IMG/VR virus record: IMGVR_UViG_3300025168_000453
Location: 1-28,916 of that record
Length of the DNA stretch: 28,916 nt
Strand: one strand, 5' to 3'
Source: a virus
This document shows positions 7,707-28,812 of this stretch, piece by piece (the stretch's first letter is position 1; each line of letters begins with the position of its first letter). Below the pieces are notes generated by a model that was not told the DNA's origin, ran no database searches, and saw only the letters and a list, made by a program, of their open reading frames with translations. The position numbers were made by a program, and so were the translations under genes.

Positions 7707-7715
7707 TAACACACA

Positions 7716-10882: not shown

Positions 10883-11293
10883 ATGGGTAATTTCGATTTA
10901 GAATACGTAAGCGTTCCTGGGAAAAATAGAATTCTAGGACTAGCATTCCCTATGAGAACTGATGGGGTAGGAGGGTTCTTAACCTCCAATGAAAATCTTG
11001 GTTCCTTGCGCGACTGCGTTATACAGCTAATAATGACTAGAAGGGGAGCCCGTGTAATGAGACCTGATTTTGGAACCGATGTACGGCAAGCCGTTTTCGA
11101 ACCGCTGGACTCACGTCTTGTAGACACTTTAAAATCCCAAATATCCTCCACTATAGCTAAATACGAACCTCGTGTAATTATCAAAAATTTAACTATAACC
11201 CCTAACTGGGAAGAAAATAGACTAACTATCAAGTTATCTTTAAGCTCAAAAGATGACTTACTTAACACTGAATTTGTGGAGCTTCTAGTATAA
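10883..11293 (+). CDS. Baseplate wedge protein, T4 gp25-like
   Basis: This 136-residue protein matches the gp25/GpW family closely. It has the IQLIMTRRGARVMRPDFGTD block (about 47-66), followed by VFEP (about 71-74). The family's conserved E-P-R triad is in YEPRV (about 94-98), where it contributes to the sheath-initiator interface in T4 gp25 and type VI TssE proteins. Length is normal for the family (about 130 residues). The start lies in an A/T-rich leader with no Shine-Dalgarno, 2 nt after the LamG gene stop. The stop overlaps the next start as TAATG, giving tight coupling with the gp6-like gene, its usual partner in phage tail operons. Confidence 0.93.
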   Translation: MGNFDLEYVSVPGKNRILGLAFPMRTDGVGGFLTSNENLGSLRDCVIQLIMTRRGARVMRPDFGTDVRQAVFEPLDSRLVDTLKSQISSTIAKYEPRVIIKNLTITPNWEENRLTIKLSLSSKDDLLNTEFVELLV

Positions 11294-12915
11294 TGGCAAA
11301 CCAAACCGACTACAATAAATTTTTCCAAGGTCTATACAATGTATCTGGCTTTGATGGCTCCATTGAATCTGATTTCTTAAAATTAGGGCAAGTACCAGAT
11401 GACAGAAAATCAAATCTTATTGATTATAACCTGAAAGGGTTTGATGATTATCGCGTCGCGCTTCAAAACTACCTAAAAGCTGTATACCCTTTAGATTACA
11501 ATAACTTTGCTTCATCTGATTTAGGTCAAATGCTGGTGGAGATGTTCGCTTATATGGCGTCAGTTGTAACCCTTAGAGCTGATATGACAGCTAACGAAAT
11601 GTACATTGATACAGTCAAGGATGAAAATAATCTAAAAAGATTACTTCAATTGATTGGCGTGTCAATGAAAGGACCAACAGCCTCGCGCGCAAGCGCATCG
11701 CTCACAATACCTGCTAATGTTACGTTAGGTGGAGACGACATTATAATAAGTGAAGCTCAACGTAGAATTAACATCACTAATCAGAGAAGTGGTACCCCAT
11801 TAACCTACACAATTTGCCAACAAAAAGCCAACGGAACCTTAGACCTATTTACCCAGGACTTATCAGTAACAAATGCTGATTTTACGAATAATGTTAATAC
11901 GTCTTTACTTCTTTTAGAAGGCGCTTTGCAATCTCAGTCTGGTAAGTTTAATACCGCCGACATCCGACAAACTATAACCATTACAGAAGGACCTATTATT
12001 GAAGGGAGTATAGGTGTATCATCTACTGAAAACGATGGAACAGAGTACAATGAAATATCTAACCTATTCGTTGCATCTGGAGGAGGTCAACCCGTATTTC
12101 AAAAGCAGTACATTGACGGCTTCGGAGCAGTGCTAGAGTTTGGAGACGGTGTCAGAGGGCGCCTCCCTACGCCTGGAGCAACTTACATCGTAACTTACCG
12201 CCAAGGTGGGGGAGTTAATGGTGATATAGTAAGAGGCAATGTTAACCAAAATATCGCGGTGAGAGTAGGTACCCAATCAGTCCAAGGAGTTCTTACTAAC
12301 ATTACCAAAGGCACAGGAGGACACGCAGCAGAAACTGTTGAACATGCCAAACGCTACGCCCCCTACTTCTTCAGAACTCAGTACCGAGCCGTTACAGGAG
12401 AGGATTATAACGCATTAGCCAACTCGTTTGTTGGTAATACAGGAGTTACCGCAAAAGCAATGGCTTCTTTACGTAAAAATGGAGCTGCGGCAAACACTAT
12501 TGATTTATTTATTTTAGCCAAAGCATCTAACAACCAATTAGAAAGAGCTTCCATAGCTTTCAAAAAAGAAATGTTAGATTATTTTAAAAGTTATAAAATG
12601 CTTACGGATGAGATTGTAATATCGGATGGAGTTGTGCGTACGCTAGATATTGTGGCTACTTTATTTATTGATAAATCACAACGAGCATTTTCTGACAATA
12701 TAAAAGCTAAAGCAGCAAATCGATTAGTAGAATATTTTAATATCGATAATGTAGCATTCGGACAAAAGATATCCATTGCAGATATAACCAACTTTATGTT
12801 GGAAGTACCTGAAATTAGATTTTTTAATGTTGATAATCTTCCTGCTGATGTATTTCTAAACTTCAATGAGATTGCACAGATAAACAACTTTGAGTTTACC
12901 ATAGAGTTCGTATAA
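11293..12915 (+). CDS. Baseplate wedge protein, T4 gp6 / Baseplate_J-like
   Basis: This 540-residue protein is likely the wedge core that dimerises around the hub. An early block (about 73-118) contains SSDLGQMLVEMFAYMASVV and then ANEMYIDT and LKRLLQLIG. This is the characteristic N-terminal helical signature of gp6 and Baseplate_J proteins (the protein connects wedges and is found by its 'L.E..A......' helix). A central region (about 300-335) has glycine-rich GGGVNGD. The AETVEHAKRYAPYFFRTQYR block with RAVTGEDY (about 345-372) matches the core motif of Baseplate_J. The C-terminus alternates strands and helices and ends in an FEFTIEF strand. It follows the gp25-like gene with a one-base TAATG overlap and passes to the next gene the same way. 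Identification is strong on motif and order. Confidence 0.92.
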   Translation: MANQTDYNKFFQGLYNVSGFDGSIESDFLKLGQVPDDRKSNLIDYNLKGFDDYRVALQNYLKAVYPLDYNNFASSDLGQMLVEMFAYMASVVTLRADMTANEMYIDTVKDENNLKRLLQLIGVSMKGPTASRASASLTIPANVTLGGDDIIISEAQRRINITNQRSGTPLTYTICQQKANGTLDLFTQDLSVTNADFTNNVNTSLLLLEGALQSQSGKFNTADIRQTITITEGPIIEGSIGVSSTENDGTEYNEISNLFVASGGGQPVFQKQYIDGFGAVLEFGDGVRGRLPTPGATYIVTYRQGGGVNGDIVRGNVNQNIAVRVGTQSVQGVLTNITKGTGGHAAETVEHAKRYAPYFFRTQYRAVTGEDYNALANSFVGNTGVTAKAMASLRKNGAAANTIDLFILAKASNNQLERASIAFKKEMLDYFKSYKMLTDEIVISDGVVRTLDIVATLFIDKSQRAFSDNIKAKAANRLVEYFNIDNVAFGQKISIADITNFMLEVPEIRFFNVDNLPADVFLNFNEIAQINNFEFTIEFV

Positions 12916-15900
12916 TGCCAATTAACCCCAACCGTAAAAACGCTGGATACCGACCTACTCGAAATACTGATGTAGGTCCAAACCAACAACACTTCAAGTC
13001 TAATTACATTGAAGTGTTACAACGTATTGTCCCCGAGTTTTACGAAGATACAGAGTACGCTCTCTTTGGAGAAGAAGAAGACCTACAGTACAATGTACTA
13101 GCCCGACTACTCAGCCTTGCAAGCAACCTCTCTTCAGTTATCGCAACTCCAGAGGCAACGCAAGCTTCATCTTTTAGTAGCAACCACTCCCTAATCCCGT
13201 ACTTCGTACCGTTTAATAAATTAACGGATGTATCACCGCAACGCTTCGAGAACCACATCTTGCGCCCTTTAGGTAAGACATTCGGAAGCTTTGAAAATGT
13301 ATCAGACTTTAGCTCCTTCGTAGTTGCAACCGCATTACCCGCAACGCATTTAAATGAAGTAACCACCTCCTTCGCGACCGATTACTCGGCTATCGTAGAT
13401 AATACGGCAAGCTCAATAGGGTTAGTACAAGAGAAGCTTATTGAGGAGTTAGGTTGGTTATATTTACTAAACACAAACGGGTTAATCGAGGACGCAACTT
13501 CTATAGCGCCTAGCTCTGTATTGGTAAGCTCGTTGAACGAGGATTTATTTTACGGTAAAAAGTACACGACCGAATCAGGGGTCTCCGACTTAGTTAAGTG
13601 GCTCGCCTTGAACGTACAAGGGGGTGGTACTAGTTGGGACACAGTAGGAGCTAATTATATTAGCCCCCCTTTCAACTCACCGTCATCTACCCAGTCCGAT
13701 AATTACTGGGCTTCTGGAGGACAACTTGTAAGCTCTTTAGATACAATGGTTAAGGTGTGGGTAAACGAGGATGACCCAAACTCTCTTTACTTTAGAGATA
13801 TTGTTAACGCATCACTTTTAGGCTTAAACGTTTCTAGAATGGAGAACGCAGGTCCAATGGGCAAAATGCTTAAAGCCTTAGCCTACGGATTTTATGATAT
13901 AAAGAATACAGTTAGGGATGTACAGTTTCTCCTCGATATTGAAGAATGTCCTGAGGAGTTTTTACAGTACCTAGGAAGATACCTGGGGTGGACATTCTTC
14001 ACAACCGACCCGGCGCTCTGGAGAGACCAGTTAAAACAAGCCATCTATCTGTATAAAGCTAAAGGGACTAGACAAGCATTAGCAAATGCTGTTAATATGG
14101 TAATACCTTCTTCTGTGTATAATGTAAATGCAGAAACTAGCGGTCTTCAAGAGTTATGGGAATCTTATTTTCCCAACCTTATTTACTACACGATTAAAAC
14201 CGAAACAAATATAGCTACTGACCCTAGAGAATACTTAAGGGTAGCTAATGCCTGGAAGACTAGATTTAGCTCATCAGGTATAGGGATAAATACAAAACCT
14301 TACGACCCTGTTAACCCTGATAACAATGCGAGGTACTTAGTTGATTTTATTTTAACTTATCTTAATGTAACGAACCCTTATTTAGTAATAGCAAATGAAC
14401 CTGTTAGCTCAACTGCGTACATAAGCTCTCAAGTAAGTGCTAACCATCTGGAAGGCTCCTATTTTTACAGAGGGTATAATTTCCAGATACCGCCTTGGGA
14501 AGAACAGAGGTTCTACCAAAACTGCACAATAACCGAACCTTTGGTAAGGAGTATGTCCGCATTAATGGAGAGACCTATTCAGCAGTTAGGGCTAGGGATT
14601 GCGACTTCGAGTTGCCACGCAGTAGCGGAGTACATCGTGAGCTCTATAGGCATAAAAGACCAAGATGGATTTTTAGAACCAGGCTTTGGAGATAATAACT
14701 CGTTTCGATTTATGAGTTCATCTCTCAATCTTCCTTATAATTATGAAACAATAATTCGGGAAGGTAACATAGATGGGATGTCTGTGTTCGATTATTGGAA
14801 TGGTAAATCGTCTGAAGTTCACTCTAAATTTCATTTATCTTCAATTGATTTCACTCAAGACGATTTCTTAGATATTTCTAAAACAACTCTGGGAAGAAAA
14901 GGAATCCCTACGATAATAGATATTTTCAGGCAGTTCGCTCCGTTCCATACAATTAATAAAATTTATACGGGCTCAGGGATTACCGACAACTACGGAGGAA
15001 GACGTAACGCTCCCGGAGACGACGACCCAACAAGCTCTTGGTCCGGCGTCAACGACCTACAAATCATCAACACCATACAGTCTGATGCTGACCAGTTCAA
15101 TAGTTCCTATGCGTACGATGGATTTCCTGGCACTCAAGGTGCGGAGACCGGCTATTTCTCTAGTGTGGGTATTGCTCCGAGTGTGTATAATCCTAAACAG
15201 GCGCGCTGGATACCTTCCGCAACCCTCTTAACAGATGGTTATTTTTGGAGTGGTGGTACTGTTACAGGACCAAGTGCATTAAAATCAATCACTACTATCC
15301 CGCGTACAGCAGGAAGACGCAGGAATTTAAAATACAAATTCACAGGGTGGGCTCAGAACAGAGAAGGGTTAAACCAACCCAACCCTACCGATTACTTTTT
15401 ATCAGGAACCAATACCCAACGAAGTTTACAGATACCGGGATTTGTCCCTAAAGGATTTAATTTTTCTTCCCAACAATATGTGAATACAAGCGGAAGCCTT
15501 TCTGGGGTATACTCTCAGTACAACACTTCGGCAACACCGTTCTTTGAATTCGCAGGCTCATCCAATTTTCCTATAAGGGCTGTGTCCGATTACGAGACGA
15601 ATGCGTCAAGCTGGAACCAGATGAGAGATGTTTTTGGTTCTCAAATTTTAAGAGCCCTTACCCAAATTTTTGTAGTAAGAAGCGAAACGGATACTCGTTG
15701 GCTGGACTTTAGCAATAAAGGATTTCAAAACTTTAAATTTGGTAAAAATATATTAAAACTATACCAAGAGTATAACACCCATTTTAACCGACAACTTACA
15801 AACCTAGTCCCGGGAGATACCCTCCAACAACGCCAACCTTACGCAGGAGGATTTAACATTCTCTCTCATGTATTTGGTCCAGGGTTATTTAATAATATGT

Positions 15901-17762
15901 TTTCTATAAAAGGAAGTATTACTTCAAACCTATCATCGATAGCGATAAACCAAAGAACTGGGACAATAACGGAGTTTCATAAGGATTGGAGTGCCGTCGC
16001 CGCCACCCAAGCAATTGTAGGGGATTTCCACCTCTTTACCTCAGACGGACGAGGTAAAGACCTAAGCGAAGGAATTCTTCAAGCCGGGGGGTATAATACT
16101 TATAACCATCCAATTGACACCTTCGAACTTCCTAATGATATAGTGTATTCTAACGGCTCACTACTGTCCGGAATTGAACTGGTATCTCAAGCTGTAAACG
16201 CTTTGGCGGTATGGAACGCACCTGAGAATACACATTATAATGTAGACAATACTAAAGCTAACGGTCTTACTTTAATACAACGAACTAACACAGGTAATGT
16301 AATGGGGGGAATGAGGGTAAGATTCCCGTTGAACGGTAATATTAATTATTCATATAACGGGAAATTAAAGTACCCGTCTTTAGATGGAGCAGCCACCAAC
16401 CCTTCTTTATCCGCTGTTGCAGGTTGGCAAATGGTCGACCAATTTAGAAGCCCTAACATCTCGCAATATGACGGCGCCCTTACGATTGCAGCCGCTCGCA
16501 CCGCATCGTATCAATTTACCCCCGGAGCCAGCTCCCTTCCTATTGTCGTACTGAGCGGAAAAGGGCGCGGAAACATTGATAGTGCGGGAACTAAACCTCT
16601 AGGAAATCAAAACAACCCAGCTTTTGCTACAGTTGCTCAGGTACAGAACCGTCAAACGCCAAAAAATTTACGAGACCTAGAACCGAATACTAGGTACAGA
16701 GTTAATTTTGAGGCGTCGGCAGTACACTCCGACGGAACCCCGCAAATAGCAGGAGCTATCTTTAATACAACTAAAGGAAAACACTGGACAGGCAGCACAT
16801 GGGCAACTACTACTAATGCATTATCCGGAAACTCAGTATTCACTTTTGTTAGCGGGTTCAATCCCGTAACCTCCGCTACCCAAGGAACCTTAACCTTCAA
16901 AGAATACACCACAGATTTCACGACTGACTATTCTTTTGAAAAAGGTGACTCCTATCAATTATGGATAACACCTATTAACCTTGATGCCGCACACACCCTG
17001 GGTATTGGAGTGCGGGATATTGAGACCCGTTACGAAGGACCTCCACAAATAACTAAAAGTTTTTACGGAGCTGACGGGAATAAACTATTTCCCAACCAAG
17101 AGTATGACTTGAATATACGTGCTCGAGTAGCTTCGTTAAACGAAGGATTAAGTGGGGTTGACGAAACTCTTCGCGCAAGAGTAGTGGTCGAACAAAAACC
17201 ATTTGTTGGGAACGGCTGGGAGAAGTTCGCGAAGATGTGGGCATACAACTGGACTACTAAGATGTGGGTCGAGTCTACCCGCGCAAATCTTCAGGACACA
17301 TGGAAACGGTTGGATGTACGTGCTACGGAAGCGGCAGGAGAAGAATTTAACTTAACGTTTAATACATTCAATTGGAGAACCCCGTTAAGCTACAAGTCTT
17401 TAGCAGGACCTTTAGATGGATATTTCGCCTCCGCTGGACCTGTCCACGATAGTAATTCTGTTTACTATATTGAAATAGGAAAACCTACTATGACTGGGTT
17501 AAATAATGGTGTAACTTTAATAGACACAAGTTTAGTAAATAAAAACTATAATATATATGCTAGGGATTATAGAAGAAAAGACTTTGTTGATGTTTTCGAG
17601 TTCTTTGACGATTTAAATAAGAGCAAGTCTTCCCGGGATTCTGTAAATTCTTCTGGAACCTACCTAAGGTATGGAGGTTCTCGAAATGAATACATGGAGT
17701 ATTGGGGAGGTAGTCACTCCGCTACTAATGGAGTATATGGGTTTGTAGATAATGAAAGGTAA
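12915..17762 (+). CDS. Giant wedge/adhesin protein: tail-protein-I-like N-terminus with beta-sandwich modules
   Basis: This 1615-residue protein seems to combine a baseplate wedge domain with a large host-contact part. Residues about 320-395 contain a block starting ECPEEFLQYLGRYLGW (344-359) and then WRDQLKQAIYLYKAKGTRQA, followed by LANAV. This 'LGWxF...WR..L...I.L.K.KGT' block is the hallmark of P2 gpI and other tail-protein-I wedge proteins (roughly 180-250 residues). About 1,200 residues follow it. Near the C-terminus two beta-sandwich modules resembling carbohydrate-binding modules are visible: LEPNTRYRVNFEA (from 1255) with W1291, and LFPNQEYDLNIRA (from 1391) with MWAYNWTTKMWVE (from 1441). 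The ATG at 12915 overlaps the gp6-like stop (TAATG). The stop overlaps the next gene by 11 nt. In T4 a large wedge protein (gp7) occupies a similar place, but I cannot show homology. Glycan binding is inferred. Confidence 0.75.
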   Translation: MPINPNRKNAGYRPTRNTDVGPNQQHFKSNYIEVLQRIVPEFYEDTEYALFGEEEDLQYNVLARLLSLASNLSSVIATPEATQASSFSSNHSLIPYFVPFNKLTDVSPQRFENHILRPLGKTFGSFENVSDFSSFVVATALPATHLNEVTTSFATDYSAIVDNTASSIGLVQEKLIEELGWLYLLNTNGLIEDATSIAPSSVLVSSLNEDLFYGKKYTTESGVSDLVKWLALNVQGGGTSWDTVGANYISPPFNSPSSTQSDNYWASGGQLVSSLDTMVKVWVNEDDPNSLYFRDIVNASLLGLNVSRMENAGPMGKMLKALAYGFYDIKNTVRDVQFLLDIEECPEEFLQYLGRYLGWTFFTTDPALWRDQLKQAIYLYKAKGTRQALANAVNMVIPSSVYNVNAETSGLQELWESYFPNLIYYTIKTETNIATDPREYLRVANAWKTRFSSSGIGINTKPYDPVNPDNNARYLVDFILTYLNVTNPYLVIANEPVSSTAYISSQVSANHLEGSYFYRGYNFQIPPWEEQRFYQNCTITEPLVRSMSALMERPIQQLGLGIATSSCHAVAEYIVSSIGIKDQDGFLEPGFGDNNSFRFMSSSLNLPYNYETIIREGNIDGMSVFDYWNGKSSEVHSKFHLSSIDFTQDDFLDISKTTLGRKGIPTIIDIFRQFAPFHTINKIYTGSGITDNYGGRRNAPGDDDPTSSWSGVNDLQIINTIQSDADQFNSSYAYDGFPGTQGAETGYFSSVGIAPSVYNPKQARWIPSATLLTDGYFWSGGTVTGPSALKSITTIPRTAGRRRNLKYKFTGWAQNREGLNQPNPTDYFLSGTNTQRSLQIPGFVPKGFNFSSQQYVNTSGSLSGVYSQYNTSATPFFEFAGSSNFPIRAVSDYETNASSWNQMRDVFGSQILRALTQIFVVRSETDTRWLDFSNKGFQNFKFGKNILKLYQEYNTHFNRQLTNLVPGDTLQQRQPYAGGFNILSHVFGPGLFNNMFSIKGSITSNLSSIAINQRTGTITEFHKDWSAVAATQAIVGDFHLFTSDGRGKDLSEGILQAGGYNTYNHPIDTFELPNDIVYSNGSLLSGIELVSQAVNALAVWNAPENTHYNVDNTKANGLTLIQRTNTGNVMGGMRVRFPLNGNINYSYNGKLKYPSLDGAATNPSLSAVAGWQMVDQFRSPNISQYDGALTIAAARTASYQFTPGASSLPIVVLSGKGRGNIDSAGTKPLGNQNNPAFATVAQVQNRQTPKNLRDLEPNTRYRVNFEASAVHSDGTPQIAGAIFNTTKGKHWTGSTWATTTNALSGNSVFTFVSGFNPVTSATQGTLTFKEYTTDFTTDYSFEKGDSYQLWITPINLDAAHTLGIGVRDIETRYEGPPQITKSFYGADGNKLFPNQEYDLNIRARVASLNEGLSGVDETLRARVVVEQKPFVGNGWEKFAKMWAYNWTTKMWVESTRANLQDTWKRLDVRATEAAGEEFNLTFNTFNWRTPLSYKSLAGPLDGYFASAGPVHDSNSVYYIEIGKPTMTGLNNGVTLIDTSLVNKNYNIYARDYRRKDFVDVFEFFDDLNKSKSSRDSVNSSGTYLRYGGSRNEYMEYWGGSHSATNGVYGFVDNER
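16671..17494 (+). repeat. Tandem beta-sandwich (CBM-like) modules in the tail-protein-I-like gene
   Basis: Two consecutive modules can be read. The first opens with LEPNTRYRVNFEA and has its aromatic hairpin at KHWTGSTW. The second opens with LFPNQEYDLNIRA and has its hairpin at MWAYNWTTKMW. The shared 'L-x-P-N-x-x-Y' opening and tryptophan hairpin indicate duplication of one beta-sandwich module type. Nucleotide identity between the copies is low, so this is an old or recombination-derived repeat visible only at protein level. Confidence 0.5.
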
Positions 17763-20700
17763 CATACAAGTAATTCAAAATTATGGTGATAGCCAAAAGG
17801 TCATATTTCAACAAGACAATATGGCAGTAGATGGTGTTCGTAAAACCATAGCGGACATAATGACCTATAAACCTAACCCGAGCGGAACTGCCGCTCCGGC
17901 ATACATGGAGGTCGGAGTCAGCTCCGTTTCCAGCTACCAAATCCAAGCAATGACCTTAGGCAGCGCTAAAGGGTATTACGATAAAAGGGATAGTAGATTT
18001 TGGTACAGTGCTACAGAGTACTCATCAACAAATTACCAACAACTTCCCCTGAAGCCAAATGACTACTTTGAGATGTTCGATAGTTACTCAGCCATTGGGT
18101 ACAACTCTTGGATGTACGACAATGTAGTGGACGCTAACATATTACAATCCCCTACTCTCTCCAATCTGCGGAAGTGGGAAGTTATATACAAAGTTCCTGA
18201 GGACCCTAGCAACCCAGCCATGTCTAGACAAGAAACATCGGTTGAAGGAGCTCCAACAAATGTCACACGTTTTGAACTTACAAAAGGGCAGCAGGCTGTT
18301 ACGTTACGCCAACAAGTCCCAGTGCGTCTAGGAGAAAATTATTATTTATACACCAACGGTAAATCTTACCAAGCAACTTTCGATTTTAGAATTGGAAGAG
18401 GGCGCAACGGTATCACTTTTGAATATTACGATTTTAACAACAGAGAGTTTGTCCCTAAGACTAATTTAGATTCTATGACGCGTGAAACTATTTTATTAAA
18501 TAGTACCTTTGATGTTAACGAGTTTCGCTTCCAACTAAAAGGAAATGAGGTAGACCAAGCTCTGGAACTTAATAACGAATATTATGTAGAGTACGTCTTC
18601 CCAGCTCAGTCATTCGTCGACTCTGAGTTTTCCCCATGGGAGAATGACCAACAAAACCCATACGTAGACATCGCTCGTTTAGAATTATGCGACGCTTCCC
18701 ACCAAATCCTTAAAAATCCAAATTTTTTAACTAGTCAAAGTAGGATGATTAACAATGATTTTCGAATCATAAATGACTTGACGGAATTCAACGCAGTAAG
18801 ACCAGGTCTTTCTAATAGCCTAGGATACAGACACTTGACGGGCTGGTCTGTCGTAAACCCTATCTTAAATTCTGCTGACCCGGGGACTGAGGAACTTAAC
18901 GGGGACATAGGTTCTATAAAACCTGCAATCACTTCACACCTAGAGGCAACAGTCTTTTCGTCAATGACGGACGGCGTAATTCTATACACATCCGGGACGA
19001 ATTTAATTGATTCCAGTGGCGCTGTTTCCCTAACACAAAGTTTTGGTTTGGGGGACGAGGTTAGAAACGACTACGCCTTCCCTAGCCTACTGTCTGATGT
19101 CCCGACCAATTTAAACGCCGCCAACGGTCAGTCAGATAACAACACTACCTTCATGCTCTCCCTAGAGACGATGGTATCAGGTACAAGCACAGCCGCCAAC
19201 TCGGGACACCTACAAATTTCCTTGCTTAGAAATTCGGACGCGTTCTTCTATAGTTTTAACCAAAACTCTGTAACGAACCTTTCCAATAAATTTGAAGCTG
19301 AGGACATACCACTAACAATACCTTATTCAGTAAAAGATTCTTGGTTACAGGTCGGGGTCCCAGTCGTATTACCAGCAGACGCTAACAGGGACTCATACAC
19401 CCTATCAATCAAAGCCTCTGGTCGTACTGACGCAAATGGGTTTTGTAATTATGCAATAAAAGATTTTTCATTTGGAGAATTACAGGGTTGGAGAACGTAC
19501 ATGTACGACCAAAGCGGGTTAGCCTTATGGAGTCTCAGCTCCCAAGGATACACTAACATGACATCAGGATACCTGTACTCTGGATTATCGTTTAGTGGTC
19601 CTACCACACAGGAATTTGGTTGGAGCGCGGGTTATCTCGAAGCAGTTAACGATACTAGAACATCGTTTAAAAATCAGATAGTCCAGAATTTTGGAGGGTT
19701 AGAACCTACTAAAAGTTATCGACTTTCTTTAAAAGGTAGTGCTAAAGGAGATTCTTTTGGAACCGCACCAACGTCTACCGACAACAATGCATTTCTTGCT
19801 CTTTTGAAAGCTCGGGCAAAAATAAGACAATCGGGGAAAAATAATATACTTTCTCAATACATGAAAGATGCAGCAGTGTATAGTGGAAGCACGTACCCTA
19901 TATCTAACCTCAATCCTTACTCTAACAACGGACAGTCGTTTAGAAGGACCTTCCCGCAATTTCAAAAAACATTAAAAGACTCAACAACAAAACCTACGGA
20001 CTGGGGCATTTTGCTGGAAGCTTCCGGCACTGGAGTAAATAACTATGCTTTTGAAGAGTCCAGAGGTAATAAAGGAAATTACACATTGTCAATGGATGTT
20101 TTTAATTCGCATGACGAAGGCTCGTATTTTGTTTTAAGCAGCGCTCCCGGCGCCTTCTATGATTGGGAACTTGCCGACTGGGTAGTTTTTAACGCTGGAA
20201 GCTCGTACCAACCGGAGTATTTGACGACTACCTCTGGGTCATTTTTTCTACCGTTACCTAAAGAAAGGAATACTGACGATTATACTTCTTTTGAATACCC
20301 TCACCCTATAAATTTTCAAAGTGTTGATTTAGAGCCGACAGATGACCCAACACCCGATAACACTGGTTCTCGAGGAACTTACAAAATTACAGCCGGTTTA
20401 TTCGGACCCGCCGCTGCCGAAGGAAGTACCTTAGTTAAAAATATTAGTCTCGCGGGCGCGGGAGAAGAGCCGAACGTAGACATGTGGAAAGACCTTTATT
20501 ATCAATGGGAAACCGGGCGGTGGAGTCCGATACCAAACCAAGGTAATATCAATGCCAATATGAGCAATGCCAACCACCCGGTCAGAAACTTCGTAGCCGC
20601 ACCTTCCGCCATTATAACCAACATGTGTTTATATGGGCTAGGAAAAGATACAGAGTACCAACTTAATATTATTAATACTTCGGGCGGGGAGTTTACGTTT

Positions 20701-22215
20701 AATGATGTGGCTTTAACTGACACTGCGCTAATTGCAAACCCTGGAACCGATAGGTGGGTAAGAGACTCGTCAATTTTTACTAGCGAATTTTACGGGAACA
20801 GCCACTATAAAAATTATACTAATGGAGTTGTTATAAAATATCATAGCACTCTAGATGAAGTAAGTGACCCGTCAAGTCTAACTCCACCACGACCCGCCCA
20901 AACTCCTAAGTTCGCATCGGTAGCATCACAGGTCTCATCACTCGGAGTACCTACCCTTACATTCCCAGCTGTAAATACTTCCATTCCTCGATACCCATGG
21001 ATATTATCTAATTTCACATTAGATGACTATGGTTTGCAGGGAGGAGACGAGTTCGCTTTTGGGTACGATACCCTTTTAACCTTGGAAAATGGAGATGTTA
21101 AAGGGTATGTATCCATGGAAGTCGAGTCTGATGGTAATGTCTACCAATATGATTTTACCACTAAAAACTGGACACCCGGCAGCTCACGCAGAGAGATGGT
21201 TTTTACTATTGAGCCGAACAACTCAAGCGTCATTTCAAACGACACTACTTCTTTCTGGACTAAAATAGCAACCCCTCAAATTACCGCACCTACCTTTGGT
21301 CCTAACACAAAGATGGTGGCGTCCTTAAGGATTGTCCCTTCCTCTGATTCTAACAGTGATATTCTTGTAAAGGATTTCCGAATGTATAAAACCATAGAAG
21401 CTAGACGACAAGATGCTGCAAACTTATTAGGTACGGAGTACCGAGTTTCTGGGGACACATTCCTTTTCCCTGAATTCCCTACCCCCATGGACGAGTCATT
21501 ACAGTCTAAAGGTAAGACAGGAACTCCAGGTGAACTAGGTCATTTCTTAAATAGAATTCCATACTTTGAAGCTTCGTCTTATGCCCTTAACCTCGTTCGT
21601 ACGTATAATAGCCCAGCAGACCCATCAATAACTGGCGAGAAGACTTTGGAAGAAGCAGTTTCCATGGGCGCTTACCTCCCTTCTGAAGGATTCTACTTCG
21701 GACCTGGAGCTTTCGGAACCTCTGGAGTATCAGGTCTCATATCCGGGACACTGAATGCGGTGGGCGTTGTAAATAGTGATGGGTATATCTACCAACATCC
21801 ATTCGCGGCTACCAACGAAAACGACGCTAGTGCAGGGTTTGTAACCTCTTCCTACGTACACAACCCTTACGGTGGATGGACTCACAAACCCAAAGTAAAT
21901 CGGTATATCCTTAAAGTCCATAAGAACGATTGGAAATTTATAGATTACTACATGGGAGGCATTGGCGCCCTTGGTCTAAACGTTTTTGATTATAAGAAAA
22001 CGCATGAAAAATTGGGAACTTCTTTGATGGTAAGTTCTAACAGTGTATCATATTCACAGGGAAGTAGAGTGGCACTATATAATGTAGCTGACCCTTCCCG
22101 GAACCCAGTGTTTAGATTAACCAATAAAAAAGTTACTTTTGCCCCAGGCTTACATATTGATTATCAAAATACGGATTGGCTAACTATAATATGGGATATA
22201 GACTTTCTTAAATAA
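17752..22215 (+). CDS. Giant baseplate-adhesin: small tail-protein shell with ~1,280-residue insertion
   Basis: This 1487-residue protein is probably a fibre- or adhesin-type protein attached to the wedge. Residues 1-57 (GNIQVIQNYGD..., a conserved N at 23, TIADIM, then YMEVGVS) and the last ~45 residues (ending WDIDFLK) resemble the two ends of the 201-residue protein encoded just downstream. The middle therefore looks like a huge insertion. That insertion has repeated beta-sandwich modules with an aromatic hairpin motif: YYDFNNREF (225-233), YDWELADW (803-810), YYQWETGRW (916-924) and YQYDFTTKNW (1131-1140). It also has 'L-x-P-x-x-x-Y' strand starters such as LEPTKSY (650-656). These resemble carbohydrate-binding modules; that role is an inference. 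The ATG at 17752 lies 11 nt inside the previous gene. An alternative start would need the next methionine, M24, which would remove the conserved N-terminus. Confidence 0.72.
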   Translation: MKGNIQVIQNYGDSQKVIFQQDNMAVDGVRKTIADIMTYKPNPSGTAAPAYMEVGVSSVSSYQIQAMTLGSAKGYYDKRDSRFWYSATEYSSTNYQQLPLKPNDYFEMFDSYSAIGYNSWMYDNVVDANILQSPTLSNLRKWEVIYKVPEDPSNPAMSRQETSVEGAPTNVTRFELTKGQQAVTLRQQVPVRLGENYYLYTNGKSYQATFDFRIGRGRNGITFEYYDFNNREFVPKTNLDSMTRETILLNSTFDVNEFRFQLKGNEVDQALELNNEYYVEYVFPAQSFVDSEFSPWENDQQNPYVDIARLELCDASHQILKNPNFLTSQSRMINNDFRIINDLTEFNAVRPGLSNSLGYRHLTGWSVVNPILNSADPGTEELNGDIGSIKPAITSHLEATVFSSMTDGVILYTSGTNLIDSSGAVSLTQSFGLGDEVRNDYAFPSLLSDVPTNLNAANGQSDNNTTFMLSLETMVSGTSTAANSGHLQISLLRNSDAFFYSFNQNSVTNLSNKFEAEDIPLTIPYSVKDSWLQVGVPVVLPADANRDSYTLSIKASGRTDANGFCNYAIKDFSFGELQGWRTYMYDQSGLALWSLSSQGYTNMTSGYLYSGLSFSGPTTQEFGWSAGYLEAVNDTRTSFKNQIVQNFGGLEPTKSYRLSLKGSAKGDSFGTAPTSTDNNAFLALLKARAKIRQSGKNNILSQYMKDAAVYSGSTYPISNLNPYSNNGQSFRRTFPQFQKTLKDSTTKPTDWGILLEASGTGVNNYAFEESRGNKGNYTLSMDVFNSHDEGSYFVLSSAPGAFYDWELADWVVFNAGSSYQPEYLTTTSGSFFLPLPKERNTDDYTSFEYPHPINFQSVDLEPTDDPTPDNTGSRGTYKITAGLFGPAAAEGSTLVKNISLAGAGEEPNVDMWKDLYYQWETGRWSPIPNQGNINANMSNANHPVRNFVAAPSAIITNMCLYGLGKDTEYQLNIINTSGGEFTFNDVALTDTALIANPGTDRWVRDSSIFTSEFYGNSHYKNYTNGVVIKYHSTLDEVSDPSSLTPPRPAQTPKFASVASQVSSLGVPTLTFPAVNTSIPRYPWILSNFTLDDYGLQGGDEFAFGYDTLLTLENGDVKGYVSMEVESDGNVYQYDFTTKNWTPGSSRREMVFTIEPNNSSVISNDTTSFWTKIATPQITAPTFGPNTKMVASLRIVPSSDSNSDILVKDFRMYKTIEARRQDAANLLGTEYRVSGDTFLFPEFPTPMDESLQSKGKTGTPGELGHFLNRIPYFEASSYALNLVRTYNSPADPSITGEKTLEEAVSMGAYLPSEGFYFGPGAFGTSGVSGLISGTLNAVGVVNSDGYIYQHPFAATNENDASAGFVTSSYVHNPYGGWTHKPKVNRYILKVHKNDWKFIDYYMGGIGALGLNVFDYKKTHEKLGTSLMVSSNSVSYSQGSRVALYNVADPSRNPVFRLTNKKVTFAPGLHIDYQNTDWLTIIWDIDFLK
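18300..21300 (+). repeat. Diverged CBM-like module array inside the insertion of the 1487-residue gene
   Basis: Four aromatic hairpins (residues 225-233, 803-810, 916-924 and 1131-1140) recur, each preceded by an alternating hydrophobic strand pair (for example KSYQATFDFRIG, NYTLSMDVFNSHDEGSYFVL and GDEFAFGYDTLL). They resemble the two modules at the end of the preceding gene. Boundaries are approximate, and copies are recognised only by protein pattern. Confidence 0.4.
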
Positions 22216-22218
22216 AAA

Positions 22219-22824
22219 ATGAAATTTTCTGAAATAAACAAAGATATAAACGGACATCTAGAGATATGGAAACACTTCTCAGATGGCTCCAAAGAACTGC
22301 ATTGGGAAGACAAAAATGTCATCTGTAGTGGTATGGGCGCAACTCTAGCTGAGATGTTCGACGCTGCAAAGACTGTTGATGTGCAAAATTTTCAAATGCC
22401 GTACTTTCGGGTAGGTGTTTCTGGTTCTACTCAACAACAAGTATCCTCAACGGGCGACCTTTCTGCTGCACTAACACAAGCGCAATACGGGACTGGCAAT
22501 TTAGCCGTGTCAGTACACAACACCATAATTAATGGAACAGCTGCCACCAACAAAGCATTTGGAGTAATCCCTACTTCTTATGTAAAAAGAGTAACTGATA
22601 CTAAATGCATGTGGCAAATAGTTTTAGATGAACAGACAGCGAACGTAGGAGAATCGCCTTTCGGACCAGGAAGCGCAGAAGCTCTTAACGAAGTGGGGTT
22701 ATACAGTCAAAACCCATACATACAATCACCCAAAGGCTCTCTTTTATGTGCCTATAGGTACTTCAAACCCGTATATAAAACCGATGCCTTTATACTTGTG
22801 TTTAGGTGGACAATAGAATTCTAA
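22219..22824 (+). CDS. Small tail/baseplate protein, the short paralogue-like partner of the upstream gene
   Basis: This 201-residue protein starts GHLEIWKHFSDGSKELHWED (12-31). It carries N33, G38, ATLAEMF (41-47) and YFRVGVS (62-68), and ends in FKPVYKTD then FILVFRWTIEF. The ending 'F-x-[PK]-V-x-K-[ST]-D...W-x-I-x-F' is common at the C-terminus of phage baseplate and fibre-adaptor proteins. The same N- and C-terminal blocks appear in the 1487-residue upstream protein, suggesting the same fold without the insertion. The ATG at 22219 lies 3 nt after the upstream stop behind AAATAAAAA, with no Shine-Dalgarno. The stop overlaps the next gene as TAATG. The molecular role is unknown; a baseplate or fibre-attachment role is inferred from context. 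Confidence 0.72.
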   Translation: MKFSEINKDINGHLEIWKHFSDGSKELHWEDKNVICSGMGATLAEMFDAAKTVDVQNFQMPYFRVGVSGSTQQQVSSTGDLSAALTQAQYGTGNLAVSVHNTIINGTAATNKAFGVIPTSYVKRVTDTKCMWQIVLDEQTANVGESPFGPGSAEALNEVGLYSQNPYIQSPKGSLLCAYRYFKPVYKTDAFILVFRWTIEF

Positions 22825-25800
22825 TGGTAAGTTTCAAAGATATAACAAGCTCAGGTGGAACCGCAATCTCCCCACTAAATTTCAGCGAAGGCGTACCTAA
22901 GTACGACCCTAGTTCCTTCTATAACTGGGAACAGGATAATATTCCATTATGGGTTTTAGAAGAAAGAGGAAATACTCTCTGGGCTCAAGCTGGCTTCCCC
23001 GGAGGAAACCCTGGAGGTATAACCTTTGTCCTGTCCTCATTAGGAAGCTTCGACGAATCTAAAGGAATCTACGATAACATAGATGACATTATTGAGCGTA
23101 TACCAAAACGACTTAAGTTCCCTGTACTAGTAGAGTTATGTACCTACGGTGCATTAGGAAAACTAGACGTAGCTAACATAACCTGTGAAGGAGACGGTAG
23201 ACTAGAGTTTAGAAACCAAACATACTTCGAGGACATTAACGCCTCTGCAACTTCCGTACGGGACTTCGTTACCAGCCCGATGGGAGAAGCAGCTACTCTT
23301 GTAAGCTCTATCTCTTTAGAAGCATCTTCTATGATGCTAGGCGTCTCCTCTGTACGAGGCGGTAATGTGTATGGAGACCAGGCAAGCTGGAATTCCAATG
23401 CCCGTACGTTTACGATGCAAGGTCCAGATACCGACAGGCAAGCGAACAACCTAACAGTATCCATTTTTAGTGGGAACGACTTAGGCGCCTATCAAGGTGG
23501 GTTTACCAACGGAGGGTTCTCCCTACCTCCATACACTTCAGGTGTAGACTACACAATCCCAACGGGTGACGCCAACCCTGTTTACGGCTCCGGTACCGCC
23601 TCAGTGCGGACAGGTGACATTATGGCTATGGCACAAAAACGAGAAAGCCAACTAACACGAGGTCAAAGTACTTTAGTGGGTTATGGTAACTGGTTCTCTG
23701 GGGTTAACGTTAAAGATTGCCAAGGAACTATAATCTTTAGAAATATTCTTACAGACGGCTCAAATCAATTATCGGATAACGCCACCGCAGGATGTATCCA
23801 CACCACGGAAACGGGTTGGAATATAGAAAGCAGCGATGTTATTTTGGATAATACAGCCTCTATCCGAAACTCGGCGAACGGCTATTTCTTTAAAAATTCA
23901 CGTATGAGACTAACCGGTCACTTCATGTCTTGGAGAAACTACACTAAAACTGGTAAACTTGCTGCTAATCGTAAGCAAGACGGGACAGGCGTTTTAGCCG
24001 TGAACACCGATTTGTTATGGGATACAACGTATTACCCTAACAGCCGCAAGTACTTGAATTGGTTTGGAAAGAGTAATCGAGGGATAGAACTTAGAAACAG
24101 TACAATGCGAGGGGGCATATACTCAACTAACGTTTCCGGAGTCCCTAACGGAGGCTCACAAAGCCTAGGTATGAATGTTAATACCCCCCACGGCACCTCA
24201 CTACTATATTGCTCAGGCGCTGGAGGCGACATCGCAACCACACTTATCAACACTCCAGACTGTAACGAAGCCGGTATCTACCTCGAAGGTAGCGATGTAG
24301 AATTCCAAGGAAGATTAAATAGTTATTTAAATGAAGGCGATGGCATAAAAGCTAACCGGTCTCAAATAAGGCTACCTCAATTCACTCTTAACCATAATGG
24401 TGGGTATGGACTAAATCTTAATGGGTCCCAACTAACATATGGTTGGGGGGTAGACGATATTATCACCGACACAGGCACTAATTTTAGAAAATTAGATAGC
24501 TATGACAGTACAGTCTACACTAATACAACTATTAGTAATGACGCGCCCAACACAGCCCTCCGCATTAGAAATAGAGCGCAGTTCCATTGCAGCGACAACA
24601 ATCAAAATATTTTAGCCGCCAAATCCTCTTCGATAAGCCCATTGAGAATGAACAATATCCCTGGCTACTATGGCAGATGGGGCGGAGCCGACTGGGTCGC
24701 TACTGGAGCAGGTGGGTTCCAAATAGGAGCAGTACCTGCATTTTATACCCCCATGACACATTTTGGCGCTACTCCTTACAGAGAAAATAATTTGCCGGGA
24801 ATGGTTATTACCAATAACTCCGACGCCGAGCTGGTTAATGTAAACTACTGTCTCTCCTCCGTAGATACAGGTAAAGGTAAAGTAGCTGTAGCAAGTAATG
24901 GGTCCAACGTAACATTCAGAGGAACATCAGGTTGTACCACAACCTTAAACTATTTCCCGATTACAAGCGAAGCTATGCAATTTAGAAGTTGGCTTGCGGC
25001 AGCTGTCGTAGGTACCGATAACTCCAACGTGGAAATGACAGGACCTACTAAGATAGCTAGATTTGGTATCCCTATTCTAACGGAGAACAATTCTAATTTT
25101 TCTGTTAATCCTCCTACGTTGGTAGGCACTGATAATATTCTAGACGTATCTGGATATAATCTTATTGACCCTACCGGAGGTACTGATACATCTTCTAATC
25201 ACACTTCAATAGAGCTACACTCGACACGAGCATGTATGGTCGCAAACAAGCAGTCTAATATCAGAATGTACGCATTAGGAGGAAAGGTCATCGGAGACGC
25301 TGATGGCGATGACCCAGCAAACTCTGTAGACGTTTTGGCGACAGGGTATGCTGACGCCTTCCTAGGTGACCAAAATAACCAGTTCGCTCTTTCTACCTCT
25401 GGAGGGTACGCGAAGTTTTACCCGAACGCATTTGTAAGTGGTCTTACTTTGGATAATGGACCTACATTAGCATACGAAGCAACCCTAAACCCTAGCCTTC
25501 GATACCTATTAAATAACGAAGCCACGGCTACCGATGAGCGGCACGCTGTAGGAACCACAGGCGGAATGGTCGTCCGCGCGGTAGGTGGAAGTAACTTGGA
25601 TTTAAATCTGGTTAACTTCCAAATGTTCTGCCAACCGGGAACTTTATCTGGAGCCTTCTTCAACTGGGCTGGAAGTGGATGTGAATCTATCGTCGATGTA
25701 GGTGGTGGAGATACAGGAGATGTAGACCCTCCTGATGGACCTGGATACACTAACGAGGGTTCGCCCGGCTCCGCAGCTATTGAGGCTGGCGCTATGCCAG

Positions 25801-27017
25801 CTGGAGACCAAGACGGCGGCTCCACAAATTCTGTTCGAACCGCAAGAACTGTAGGAAGGATTCAGAACCAACCCGGTGTTACCAACAGTGTTGGAACGAC
25901 TGCACCTAACAATAATGATAGCCAAGGAACAATCTATACAGCAGCAGGCAAAGGAAATAACAATAACGCCAGATTCCAAAATAACGCTCAGCCCGGAAGC
26001 ACCGAGGTATTCGGCGACGAATTTACCGGCACCCGCTCTACTAGGCTAGGTATGTACTACCGAAATGAAGATGGTACTAACCCTTCAACAGAATTGTCCG
26101 CAAACCCGTACTGTATGGGAAGCCCAATTCATATCTGGAACCTTGCCGACACATCTAGGATTCATGCAAGTAACCTGCTTATTAATGGTTTAGACCCTGA
26201 AACCGCATCTTTAGGAACCAATGCAGCTGGCGACAATGCCCAAAACTTCCATGGTCCAGGCGGCAAATGGTGGAATGGAGTATCTTTGGATTACTTTGGA
26301 GCAGGTGGTAGAAGAACTACTTATGGAGCTCTAGGAAACCAATTCGCCAACTGTGGAATCTTCCGAATCATGTTGTCTACACGAGGGGACCTTAAAGGGA
26401 TGTATGATGTAAGTACTTTAAGTGGGAACTCGTCAAATAACCAGGGTTGGGAAGGTACTGTATCCGCTGGCGGCTCTTTCGTAGACCAGATTAACGGTGC
26501 AGGTTACACTCACTTCACACAGAACACCAGAATGTTAGGCACCGCGGACAACCGAAGTATAACTAACACCGACTCTGACATGCCCGGCGGAATCTATCAG
26601 CTTTCTAGCTGTTTAAGAGTCTTTGGCTGGGGTCATCCGTCGAGGGTTCCTAATACAGGCGCGGCGCAAATTGGAGCACGAATGGTCGGCTTTAGTGCTG
26701 TTCAAGCGCTATCCTCTAATGACAATTGTGATGATGCTTACATATGGACCAACGCAGCGCCAGCGATGCCTATACCCCCTCTCCATATGGATTGGCAAGG
26801 ATATCTTAGAAACTGGTTGGATTACACCGCGGCTAACGTATTCCAAAATGCAAAACATTTAGCTGAGGACAAGGTAAATGGGTTATCTATTTATCGGTCG
26901 CATCGAGGTTCTATGTCCGGAGGAGAGGGACGAGAAGCGGGGGATGGCTCCGAAAATATATCATACGGTAAAGGAGTAAGGTCCTTAAACTTATTCGATT
27001 TTGAGAGGTTAATGTAA
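22824..27017 (+). CDS. Giant beta-helix tail fibre / baseplate protein
   Basis: This 1397-residue protein begins with a probable attachment motif: D28-P...Y33-N-W-E-Q-D-N-I-P-L42...L45. From about residue 120 to 950 it is built from short repeated strands: NVKDCQGTIIFRN, ESSDVILDNTA, LEGSDVEFQGRLN, NRSQIRLPQFTLNHNG, DNSNVEMTG and NNSNFSVNPP. The recurring 'x-[NG]-S-x-[VI]-x-[FLM]-x' coils indicate a right-handed parallel beta-helix of the pectate-lyase or tailspike kind. A low-complexity linker rich in G, N, D, P, S and T (about 958-1075) separates a C-terminal region of about 320 residues. I see no confident catalytic triad, so enzymatic depolymerase activity is unproven. The start is set at the ATG at 22824, which forms a TAATG overlap like other junctions here. 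The in-frame GTG at 22806 would add six residues and extend the overlap to 19 nt. Confidence 0.75.
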   Translation: MVSFKDITSSGGTAISPLNFSEGVPKYDPSSFYNWEQDNIPLWVLEERGNTLWAQAGFPGGNPGGITFVLSSLGSFDESKGIYDNIDDIIERIPKRLKFPVLVELCTYGALGKLDVANITCEGDGRLEFRNQTYFEDINASATSVRDFVTSPMGEAATLVSSISLEASSMMLGVSSVRGGNVYGDQASWNSNARTFTMQGPDTDRQANNLTVSIFSGNDLGAYQGGFTNGGFSLPPYTSGVDYTIPTGDANPVYGSGTASVRTGDIMAMAQKRESQLTRGQSTLVGYGNWFSGVNVKDCQGTIIFRNILTDGSNQLSDNATAGCIHTTETGWNIESSDVILDNTASIRNSANGYFFKNSRMRLTGHFMSWRNYTKTGKLAANRKQDGTGVLAVNTDLLWDTTYYPNSRKYLNWFGKSNRGIELRNSTMRGGIYSTNVSGVPNGGSQSLGMNVNTPHGTSLLYCSGAGGDIATTLINTPDCNEAGIYLEGSDVEFQGRLNSYLNEGDGIKANRSQIRLPQFTLNHNGGYGLNLNGSQLTYGWGVDDIITDTGTNFRKLDSYDSTVYTNTTISNDAPNTALRIRNRAQFHCSDNNQNILAAKSSSISPLRMNNIPGYYGRWGGADWVATGAGGFQIGAVPAFYTPMTHFGATPYRENNLPGMVITNNSDAELVNVNYCLSSVDTGKGKVAVASNGSNVTFRGTSGCTTTLNYFPITSEAMQFRSWLAAAVVGTDNSNVEMTGPTKIARFGIPILTENNSNFSVNPPTLVGTDNILDVSGYNLIDPTGGTDTSSNHTSIELHSTRACMVANKQSNIRMYALGGKVIGDADGDDPANSVDVLATGYADAFLGDQNNQFALSTSGGYAKFYPNAFVSGLTLDNGPTLAYEATLNPSLRYLLNNEATATDERHAVGTTGGMVVRAVGGSNLDLNLVNFQMFCQPGTLSGAFFNWAGSGCESIVDVGGGDTGDVDPPDGPGYTNEGSPGSAAIEAGAMPAGDQDGGSTNSVRTARTVGRIQNQPGVTNSVGTTAPNNNDSQGTIYTAAGKGNNNNARFQNNAQPGSTEVFGDEFTGTRSTRLGMYYRNEDGTNPSTELSANPYCMGSPIHIWNLADTSRIHASNLLINGLDPETASLGTNAAGDNAQNFHGPGGKWWNGVSLDYFGAGGRRTTYGALGNQFANCGIFRIMLSTRGDLKGMYDVSTLSGNSSNNQGWEGTVSAGGSFVDQINGAGYTHFTQNTRMLGTADNRSITNTDSDMPGGIYQLSSCLRVFGWGHPSRVPNTGAAQIGARMVGFSAVQALSSNDNCDDAYIWTNAAPAMPIPPLHMDWQGYLRNWLDYTAANVFQNAKHLAEDKVNGLSIYRSHRGSMSGGEGREAGDGSENISYGKGVRSLNLFDFERLM

Positions 27018-28579
27018 TGACAAGAATTAATGAAGATATCAGGTTTTACCTGCCCGCAGACCCTTACTACTACCAAGTAGATAACCTCCCCCTAAAGGAT
27101 TTATTAAATAATGATGTTAGGCTCCAGGACCAAATCGATGTGTTAACCGCTGATAATACTTCAACGGTAAGCAGAGATGGGTTTACAGAGCTTCAACCTT
27201 TTATTAATGGAGGCTTACCGGGCACAGTGTCAGTAAGACCAGGAAATTTCATAGGTAGGGTACAACGAACTTCAGATGGTGAGCTGCCGGGCTCGACTGT
27301 CGATAGAATGAATCAAGGAATTCAAGAAATAGGGTTTACGCCCACAACCCCAGCTGGCGACTACAATGTAAATGTTAACAACGCAGTCGATGTTGGTACC
27401 TCTAACATAGACCCAGATAAGTTTGTAGGACGAACGTCTGTATTCAATTTCTTTGGAGGAAGTATTAACATTGATGGATTTGATTTTACCGCCTTCGAAG
27501 GTGCAGGAGGAGTTACACCTCCCCTAGGAAGAATTGACTTAGTAGGCATCACCACTGTAAACGGTGCAATGGATGACCCCTTTCTTCCAGGTAACCCTAC
27601 AGGTACGGGACAAGTAATTGGTGACGGCTATCCAAAACTAGCTGTTGTCCAAGGCGCTGGAATCGTACAAGAGAACAATAACGTAAGAGAAGTTGTTATA
27701 GGTGAGAAGTACATCACCGTAGGCACTCCTCAAGAAGGTCTTAACGATTACGGCAGAGACCTGAACGGAACCGTAGTCCCTAACCCAACGTTTGGAACTG
27801 TCCCTTCTCCTGATGATATTGTTAATGTTTGTTTTTCAAACGATACGGTTATGACCGAGCTAGGCACACTTGCCGCAGCAAACCAAAATGCTTCTTTCTT
27901 TCTCCCTATCGCATATGTTTACGTGCCACAAAGCCATGTAAACGGTAACCCTATACCTAGACAGAACTTAAAGGATATTAGACCTTTTCTACGTACGGCA
28001 GAGCTAAGCCTACAAGAAAGACAGTCTTTAGCTGCCGCCGTAAACCCTAGTTACCATAACCCGGTTATAACTAACACTTCTCTTGAGACAAAGTTTTTAG
28101 AGGAAATCGATAGAGATAACGGCTCCCCGACTATTCAAACCCAGATTCAAGACCTTAGAGATGAGGTACAAACGATAACAGTTGAGCGAAGTCATCTGTG
28201 CGACACTCCATATCTGTTTAGGTCAGGTGGAATTTCCAACGGCGCTACTTATAACGTGACGAATGCCATTCTACCGGAACATCGAGCAAAAACTATTAAA
28301 ACTCTTTATGTTTATATGAGACCGTATGGAGGTACTGGTGATATTGGTACTGGGTGGGTCGGCGTCGAAACCCTTGGAGGCTTTGCTTTGTGGCTAATGA
28401 ACTGGGGAAACAGAGTCGAACACACCAGCACTATCACTGCTGCACCAGGAAACGGGAACGTAGCCGCTAGAGTTGACGGCGATGGAAACGTAACCGTTAA
28501 AACTCGAAAAAGTGGAACCTCTCAAAGTGTCTACGCATATATTGCCGGATATAGTTACGAAGATACTATTACTTTATAA
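27017..28579 (+). CDS. Tail fibre / baseplate protein sharing the 'DNLPL' N-terminal anchor
   Basis: This 520-residue protein begins with RFYLPADPYYYQVDNLPLKD (9-28). D15-P, Y18 and D22-N-L-P-L26 match the same features in the preceding beta-helix protein, suggesting a common way of docking to the baseplate. A long glycine- and proline-rich beta region follows (about 45-340). A short helical stretch (about 365-400, FLEEIDRDNG...QIQDLRDEVQTI) may be a trimerising coiled coil. The C-terminal ~120 residues look like a compact beta-sandwich head (strands KTLYVYMRPYG, GFALWLMNWG and SVYAYIAGYSYEDTITL), a likely receptor-contact or knob domain. The start at 27017 overlaps the preceding stop (TAATG), with GAGAGG about 8 nt upstream as a weak ribosome binding site. 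This is the last gene of the long structural run; a short non-coding gap follows. Confidence 0.75.
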   Translation: MTRINEDIRFYLPADPYYYQVDNLPLKDLLNNDVRLQDQIDVLTADNTSTVSRDGFTELQPFINGGLPGTVSVRPGNFIGRVQRTSDGELPGSTVDRMNQGIQEIGFTPTTPAGDYNVNVNNAVDVGTSNIDPDKFVGRTSVFNFFGGSINIDGFDFTAFEGAGGVTPPLGRIDLVGITTVNGAMDDPFLPGNPTGTGQVIGDGYPKLAVVQGAGIVQENNNVREVVIGEKYITVGTPQEGLNDYGRDLNGTVVPNPTFGTVPSPDDIVNVCFSNDTVMTELGTLAAANQNASFFLPIAYVYVPQSHVNGNPIPRQNLKDIRPFLRTAELSLQERQSLAAAVNPSYHNPVITNTSLETKFLEEIDRDNGSPTIQTQIQDLRDEVQTITVERSHLCDTPYLFRSGGISNGATYNVTNAILPEHRAKTIKTLYVYMRPYGGTGDIGTGWVGVETLGGFALWLMNWGNRVEHTSTITAAPGNGNVAARVDGDGNVTVKTRKSGTSQSVYAYIAGYSYEDTITL

Positions 28580-28597: not shown

Positions 28598-28602
28598 AGA
28601 CT

Positions 28603-28812
28603 ATGTGGAAAACAATTCTAAATAATATCAATACTCTCATCTTAGCGAACTGGAAAGCTCTTTTCATGTTTGTACTGGGAGCTCTCGCAGGTGTATTCCT
28701 GCTTTCATGTTCTATGGTTAATACTGCTGTTGACGCAACGCAAGAAGCTGTCACCGATGTGGTAGAATATGTAACCGGTTCTGACGACGAGGAAACTCCA
28801 GACGCTGAATGA
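28603..28812 (+). CDS. Small membrane protein or lipoprotein, candidate lysis/envelope gene
   Basis: This 69-residue protein has an 18-residue polar N-terminus ending in K18. A hydrophobic segment (19-35, ALFMFVLGALAGVFLLS) follows, ending at C36. F-L-L-S-C satisfies a loose lipobox (though L at -2 is unusual), so it could be a lipoprotein with a long n-region or a single-pass inner-membrane protein. The remaining 33 residues are short, alanine/threonine/valine-rich and then strongly acidic (SDDEETPDAE). It overlaps the next lipoprotein gene by ATGA. A small membrane protein plus an overlapping lipoprotein gene is the layout of spanin pairs in Gram-negative phages, but this one lacks a clear periplasmic coiled coil. 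The spanin reading is only a possibility. Confidence 0.6.
   Translation: MWKTILNNINTLILANWKALFMFVLGALAGVFLLSCSMVNTAVDATQEAVTDVVEYVTGSDDEETPDAE

Follow-up and report, generated by a model that had tools for sequence, protein, structure and literature searches.

The window analyzed here is a 28,916-base fragment from a marine phage (IMG/VR record IMGVR_UViG_3300025168_000453). Its plus strand contains an operon for the baseplate of a contractile tail, which runs from gp25 through gp6/J and a gpI-like gene to a gene for a long protein of 1,487 amino acids (aa), a gene for a short protein of 201 aa, and genes for two large putative fiber proteins. The long and short genes, which are the subject of this report, lie on the plus strand at 17752-22215 and 22219-22824, respectively, exactly where an earlier note on this DNA had placed them. 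That note had proposed that the two proteins represent one fold with and without an insertion of about 1,280 residues, produced by tandem duplication and subsequent insertion of a giant adhesin into one copy.

Among IMG/VR relatives of the window, most long proteins measure 1,440 to 1,952 aa. Two orthologs lack the insert, namely, those of contigs L077 (positions 7353-8282, 309 aa) and L078 (4260-5210, 316 aa). Both are encoded directly after gpI; the short gene follows directly behind the long one in L077, and the L078 contig ends at that point. The L077 protein matches residues 1 to 73 (E value, 6e-14) and 1286 to 1478 (E value, 1e-52) of the long protein in the window. Together, the L077 and L078 proteins align end to end with residues 1 to 90 and 1239 to 1487, with L077 being identical at 112 of 294 shell positions. 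The division of the long protein is therefore real, and its two ends form one unit that exists with and without a giant insert. In this respect, the earlier note is confirmed, and the insert-free orthologs provide a better comparator than the short protein on which it had relied.

Accordingly, the long protein can be divided into a shell of approximately 340 residues and an inserted region of approximately 1,150. The N-terminal shell (residues 1 to 90; 17752-18021) aligns with the start of the L077 and L078 proteins and with the short family. The inserted region, a putative adhesin (residues 91 to 1238; 18022-21465; bounds accurate to about 15 residues on either side), is absent from both orthologs. 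The C-terminal shell (residues 1239 to 1487 plus the stop codon; 21466-22215) aligns with L077, L078, and a third relative, L079, and shows 57 to 76% identity within the nearer clade. Since this shell exceeds the short protein of 201 residues in size, the insert is shorter than the 1,280 residues first estimated.

The shell is more conserved than the insert in all 10 pairwise comparisons of long proteins. For instance, the two shell parts share 79% and 76% identity with those of L001 and 42% and 45% with those of L091, against 64% and 27%, respectively, for the insert. In the nearer clade, the insert can be aligned along its length (27 to 64% identity), and its size among relatives ranges from approximately 990 to 1,590 residues. 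The shell also accepts other modules. The long protein of L079 (5889-7664, 591 aa) has no big insert and carries an RCC1-type propeller in a later loop, the repeats of which match Pfam RCC1_2 (E value, 5e-26) and also WD40_RLD. The long protein of L070 (4779-9227) combines the big insert with a second one in a third loop, located between the G-x-I-G-L strand and the conserved strand that follows it. By eye, this second insert (residues ~1240 to 1435, within the C-terminal shell) looks like a carbohydrate-binding jelly-roll.

Neither the long nor the short protein of the window matched Pfam. Searches of phage genomes returned no match for the long protein (tblastn), only two chance-level matches for a consensus built from its C-terminal 102 residues, and only chance-level matches for the insert-free L077 protein; a scan of genome contigs recovered nothing. 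Internal repeats in the insert, as well as a likeness between the insert and the C-terminal part of gpI, are weak hints (P = 0.004 to 0.008) that we do not assert.

Pairwise BLAST of the long against the short protein gave an E value of 0.045, which is too weak to decide on their relationship. We rely on profile-profile comparison (hhalign) of the IMG/VR families. The N-terminal match reached a P value of 1.6e-7 with 18 sequences and, with larger profile sets, 4e-8 (probability of 95%; 59 columns; ~24% identity). By comparison, the best of 100 column-shuffled controls gave a P value of 0.018 and the reversed profile gave 0.074. The N-terminal likeness described by the earlier note thus stands, but the register of one of its motifs does not. 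The note had paired YMEVGVS (residues 51 to 57 of the long protein; 17902-17922) with a Y-x-x-V-G-V-S segment of the short protein. This site is not conserved among the long orthologs, which read YLEPGVS, AGPIGAS, GIEDGTS, and others, with Y in 7 of 24 rows and the first V in 9 of 24. Instead, hhalign pairs VQNFQMPYFRVGVSG of the short protein with SVSSYQIQAMTLGSAK of the long protein (residues 58 to 73), in which 22 to 23 of 24 rows retain the residues L, G, S, and A. Based on this register and conservation, the true counterpart of VQNFQMPYFRVGVSG is VSSYQIQAMTLGSA (residues 59 to 72; 17926-17967), approximately 13 residues further on. In every locus where the stretch is readable, the long gene precedes the short one, even in contigs recovered with only the short protein as query. 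At the level of profiles, the long and short proteins are real paralogs at the N terminus, and a duplication origin for the pair is likely, resting on the N-terminal half.

The short protein was assigned to phrog_5417, a phage protein family without known function. The profile of this family matches the short proteins of L046 (E value, 6e-12, over positions 9 to 156 of 156) and L079 (7e-11), as well as that of Vibrio phage GR7B (2e-20). The match to the window's own short protein is partial (E value, 0.0025). In GR7B, Salmonella phage Arash, Vibrio phage D69, and Pseudomonas phage Peetri, a homolog of the short protein (GR7B_00151, Arash gp15, D69_0016, and Peetri_00118, respectively) occupies the same place directly after gpI. 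Unlike the window, these four phages carry no long gene beside the short one, and the C-terminal profile of the long protein found no match in their complete genomes. A match of the N-terminal profile in GR7B, near queC (E value, 0.002), was taken as chance or distant. The existence of such short-only lineages fits a later duplication or acquisition.

The AlphaFold2 model of the short protein has a predicted local distance difference test score (pLDDT) of 81. Foldseek retrieved no match for it in the PDB at an E value of 0.001, and the top rows were unrelated. A second aligner ranked five tail or baseplate entries first, namely, the HFTV1 tail (Z score, 7.8), two entries of phiKZ gp139 (7.2), Klebsiella phage KP1 (6.6), and A511 gp105 (6.5), followed by an unrelated entry at 4.2. 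The short protein therefore resembles known connectors at the level of fold only (Z < 8). For the model of the insert-free L077 protein, which has a pLDDT of 44, the entries with a Z score of at least 2 were phiKZ gp139 (two entries, 4.5), HFTV1 (3.9), a 334-aa T4 baseplate chain (3.5), and KP1 (2.5). As T4 gp8 measures 334 aa, this chain is most likely gp8. The order of secondary structure elements at the ends is similar in both models. Among predicted viral structures (BFVD), the short model matched, at E values of 3e-7 to 5e-4, proteins of the archaeal tailed viruses HGTV1 and HHTV-1 and of lipothrixviruses (e.g., B2CRN3, Q914H2, and A7WKQ9). The latter belong to filamentous archaeal viruses and are unexpected for a tail connector.

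Gene position is consistent with the fold. The long and short genes directly follow a wedge protein of the gpI/gp7/gp104 type, and the order gp6-gpI-long-short parallels gp6-gp7-gp8 in T4 and gp104-gp105 in A511. Both proteins would work like the connectors of these phages, and no membership by sequence is claimed.

Several observations weigh against a connector pair of which one member bears an adhesin. Profiles of the long and short proteins found no match to T4 gp8 or A511 gp105 with hhalign, and there is no sequence match to phiKZ gp139. The Pfam connector family PF25691 does not match the window proteins; its best score, for the distant short homolog of D69, is below the cut-off (E value, 0.11). 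Every structural Z value is below 8. The L077 model is poor, with its ends mostly at 60 to 70, and the structural matches that it shares with the short protein are therefore support rather than proof. The short model and, at low confidence, the insert-free model match the same solved baseplate connectors. The aromatic W-[DT]-I-[DE]-F likeness that had been noticed at the C termini is colinear and reaches both ends (short residues 147 to 193 against L077 residues ~258 to 309), yet the profile match is insignificant, with P values of 0.04 to 0.08 for whole profiles and 0.004 only when both are cut to their ends. Finally, the inserted region matched nothing in Pfam, PHROG, or the PDB sequences and, by sequence, no known carbohydrate-binding family.

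The neighboring genes support the identification of the operon. Upstream of gp25, the window encodes a gp53-like wedge protein (1034-1333) and a possible spike region. The gp25-like baseplate wedge protein (10883-11293, plus strand, 136 aa) matches PHROG baseplate wedge families (E values, 6e-24 and 7e-16), and the gp6/J-like wedge protein (11293-12915, plus strand, 540 aa) matches the baseplate wedge family phrog_219 (E value, 1.5e-33). The gpI-like wedge protein, in the baseplate wedge 3 (BW3) position (12915-17762, plus strand, 1,615 aa), matches phrog_48, has a Pfam Tail_P2_I domain at residues 318 to 397 above the cut-off, and carries a large extra C-terminal part. The length of gpI-like proteins varies from 995 aa in L077 (4366-7353) through approximately 1,150 to 1,170 aa in L011 to L015 to the 1,615 aa of the window. 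This spread suggests optional C-terminal modules there too, and some of the shorter copies may be cut by contig ends.

Downstream of the short gene lies the first putative fiber gene (22824-27017, plus strand, ~1,400 aa). Its listed GTG start at 22806 would create a 19-base overlap with the short gene. Judging from the junction sequence and from relatives, which begin with MVSF or MASY at an equivalent ATG, the likely start is the ATG at 22824 (MVSF...). This fiber protein and the next one (27017-28579) have the N-terminal motif SFYNWEQDNIPLW / DPYYYQVDNLPLKDL in common, also found in relatives, which is possibly a shared attachment segment. A small lipoprotein-like open reading frame (CSTLAPIFGGAAGAAAGSLGGPA) starts at the end of the window (~28600-28916) and is kept downstream in relatives.

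Taken together, we favor, with a probability of roughly 0.75, a duplicated baseplate-to-fiber connector of the gp8/gp105 kind, one copy of which became the platform for an adhesin-like insert. The short protein would represent the plain form, which occurs in many phages. The long protein would be a diverged second copy, with some 1,150 extra residues in the loop that connects strands behind its N-terminal beta-beta-alpha-beta unit. Its shell may dock on gpI's peripheral arm, next to the short copy or chained to it, and project the modules of the insert outward, where they would provide an additional means of binding the host, probably via glycans. We infer this mechanism from gene position, fold, and the precedent of Bacillus phage Vp4 discussed below.

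The history of the insert may nevertheless be less simple than duplication followed by insertion. Domains of the L070 insert are homologous to that of the window (E values, 7e-21, 2e-7, and 1.5e-12), as is a domain of the L046 insert (2e-9). Since L070 and L046 are deeply separated, the insert is old, and the insert-free forms may be secondary losses. In the short-protein tree, L077 and L079 group with L046 and L051 (94/97), and in the shell tree, L077 to L079 cluster with L046 and L070 and do not branch outside them. Because of these homologous inserts and tree placements, a single loss in the L077-L079 line is more economical, and independent gains would be the less economical account. We therefore consider it somewhat probable that the inserted form is ancestral to the known long proteins, that L077, L078, and L079 lost the insert, and that L079 then gained its propeller elsewhere. 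Against this order of events, the trees have long branches and unresolved forks, and homologous modules could enter the same loop repeatedly. It concerns history only and is compatible with the duplicated connector proposed above. At some depth, the plain state precedes the inserted one, as neither the paralog nor the solved connectors have an insert. Of the scenario in the earlier note, the N-terminal paralogy is supported, and the short-only lineages fit a later duplication or acquisition; the insert, however, is old, and the insert-free long proteins may not be relics of the state before it.

The long protein could also belong to a connector family of its own and have come from a different phage, with the N-terminal likeness reflecting ancient superfamily homology instead of tandem duplication. 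The identity of only ~24% over 59 columns, C-terminal halves that are barely comparable by sequence, and the size of the L077 shell (309 aa), which exceeds every short homolog read, are in line with this origin. However, the two genes neighbor each other on one strand and, wherever readable, occur as a pair without exception in this group; the short-only lineages have the short gene directly after gpI; and in sequence, neither protein stands closer to a solved family. On balance, a foreign origin is doubtful.

The role of the insert can be questioned as well, as it might be structural (a spacer, or a wedge or sheath contact) and not an adhesin. Its failure to match carbohydrate-binding families and its alignment over the full length in the nearer clade would agree with such a role. 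In contrast, its absence from L077 and L078, the propeller at another site in L079, the length range of ~990 to 1,590 residues, and a divergence faster than that of the shell speak against it, as does the analogous Vp4 Gp119, in which host-cell binding accompanies the extra modules. We regard a structural role as unlikely. Finally, that the terminal similarity is due to chance or composition, as the single-pair BLAST value and one coincidental motif might suggest, is highly improbable given the profile P value of 4e-8 against 0.018 for the best shuffled control, and the insert-free orthologs, in which the two ends are joined, have already refuted it as far as this link is concerned.

In this group of phages, large candidate host-binding modules appear to be mounted on a baseplate connector and not on the tail fibers alone. 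The insert-free, propeller-bearing, and double-inserted relatives form a natural series of where the connector opens while its ends are kept, which makes the idea directly testable and singles out the connector as a neglected site at which to seek determinants of host range in uncultured phages. More tentatively, at slightly less than even odds, the connector shell of ~300 residues may be a general insertion platform, at least three different loops of which tolerate the gain, loss, and exchange of unrelated modules (arrays of 1,000 to 1,600 residues and an RCC1 propeller), with one gene of the pair freed to diversify host contact and the plain paralog remaining structural.

Connectors of the gp8/gp105 kind have been named baseplate wedge 3-tail fiber network (BW3TFN) connectors, and their dimers join the fibers to the baseplate, as described for phage Milano (PMC10811340). 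A511 gp105, T4 gp8, and Milano gp125 and gp127 are of this kind (PF25691). The short protein matches A511 gp105 in fold, the low-confidence model of the insert-free long protein weakly matches the 334-aa T4 chain, and the position after the wedge gene is shared. Unlike the window, the T4 and A511 regions that were read each contain a single connector gene at this position, and no sequence similarity is detectable. For both proteins, phiKZ gp139 ranks near the top of the structural matches and spans most of their length; at 298 aa, it is near the size of the insert-free long protein. An equivalent gp139/gp140 pair in phiKZ was rejected, as gp140 is a RuvC-like resolvase and not a paired connector. 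In siphophages, "evolved" distal tail proteins are small tail scaffolds with inserted carbohydrate-binding modules (CBMs), that is, glycan-binding modules placed in loops. They differ from the long protein of the window in scaffold fold and tail type.

The closest precedent is Gp119 of Bacillus phage Vp4, a gp105-like connector of 831 aa with two CBMs that are absent from Gp177 of phage Deep-Blue; a GFP fusion of Gp119 labeled host cells, whereas Gp177 failed to do so (PMC11406892). The enlargement of a connector by added modules thus has a precedent, although the earlier note had seen an unusual route for host-range evolution in it. Like Gp119, the long protein is a probable connector that adjoins a wedge protein and is enlarged by modules that its homologs lack: these are missing from Deep-Blue Gp177 and A511 gp105 in the one case and are absent from L077 and L078 and different in L079 in the other. 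Unlike Gp119, it carries ~1,150 aa in a single loop, its modules are not recognized by sequence, and a plain paralog is encoded next door. The long protein is therefore not a new kind of protein but a large new form of a connector with added modules, and it broadens a strategy, described recently, by which phages attach host-binding parts to the baseplate.

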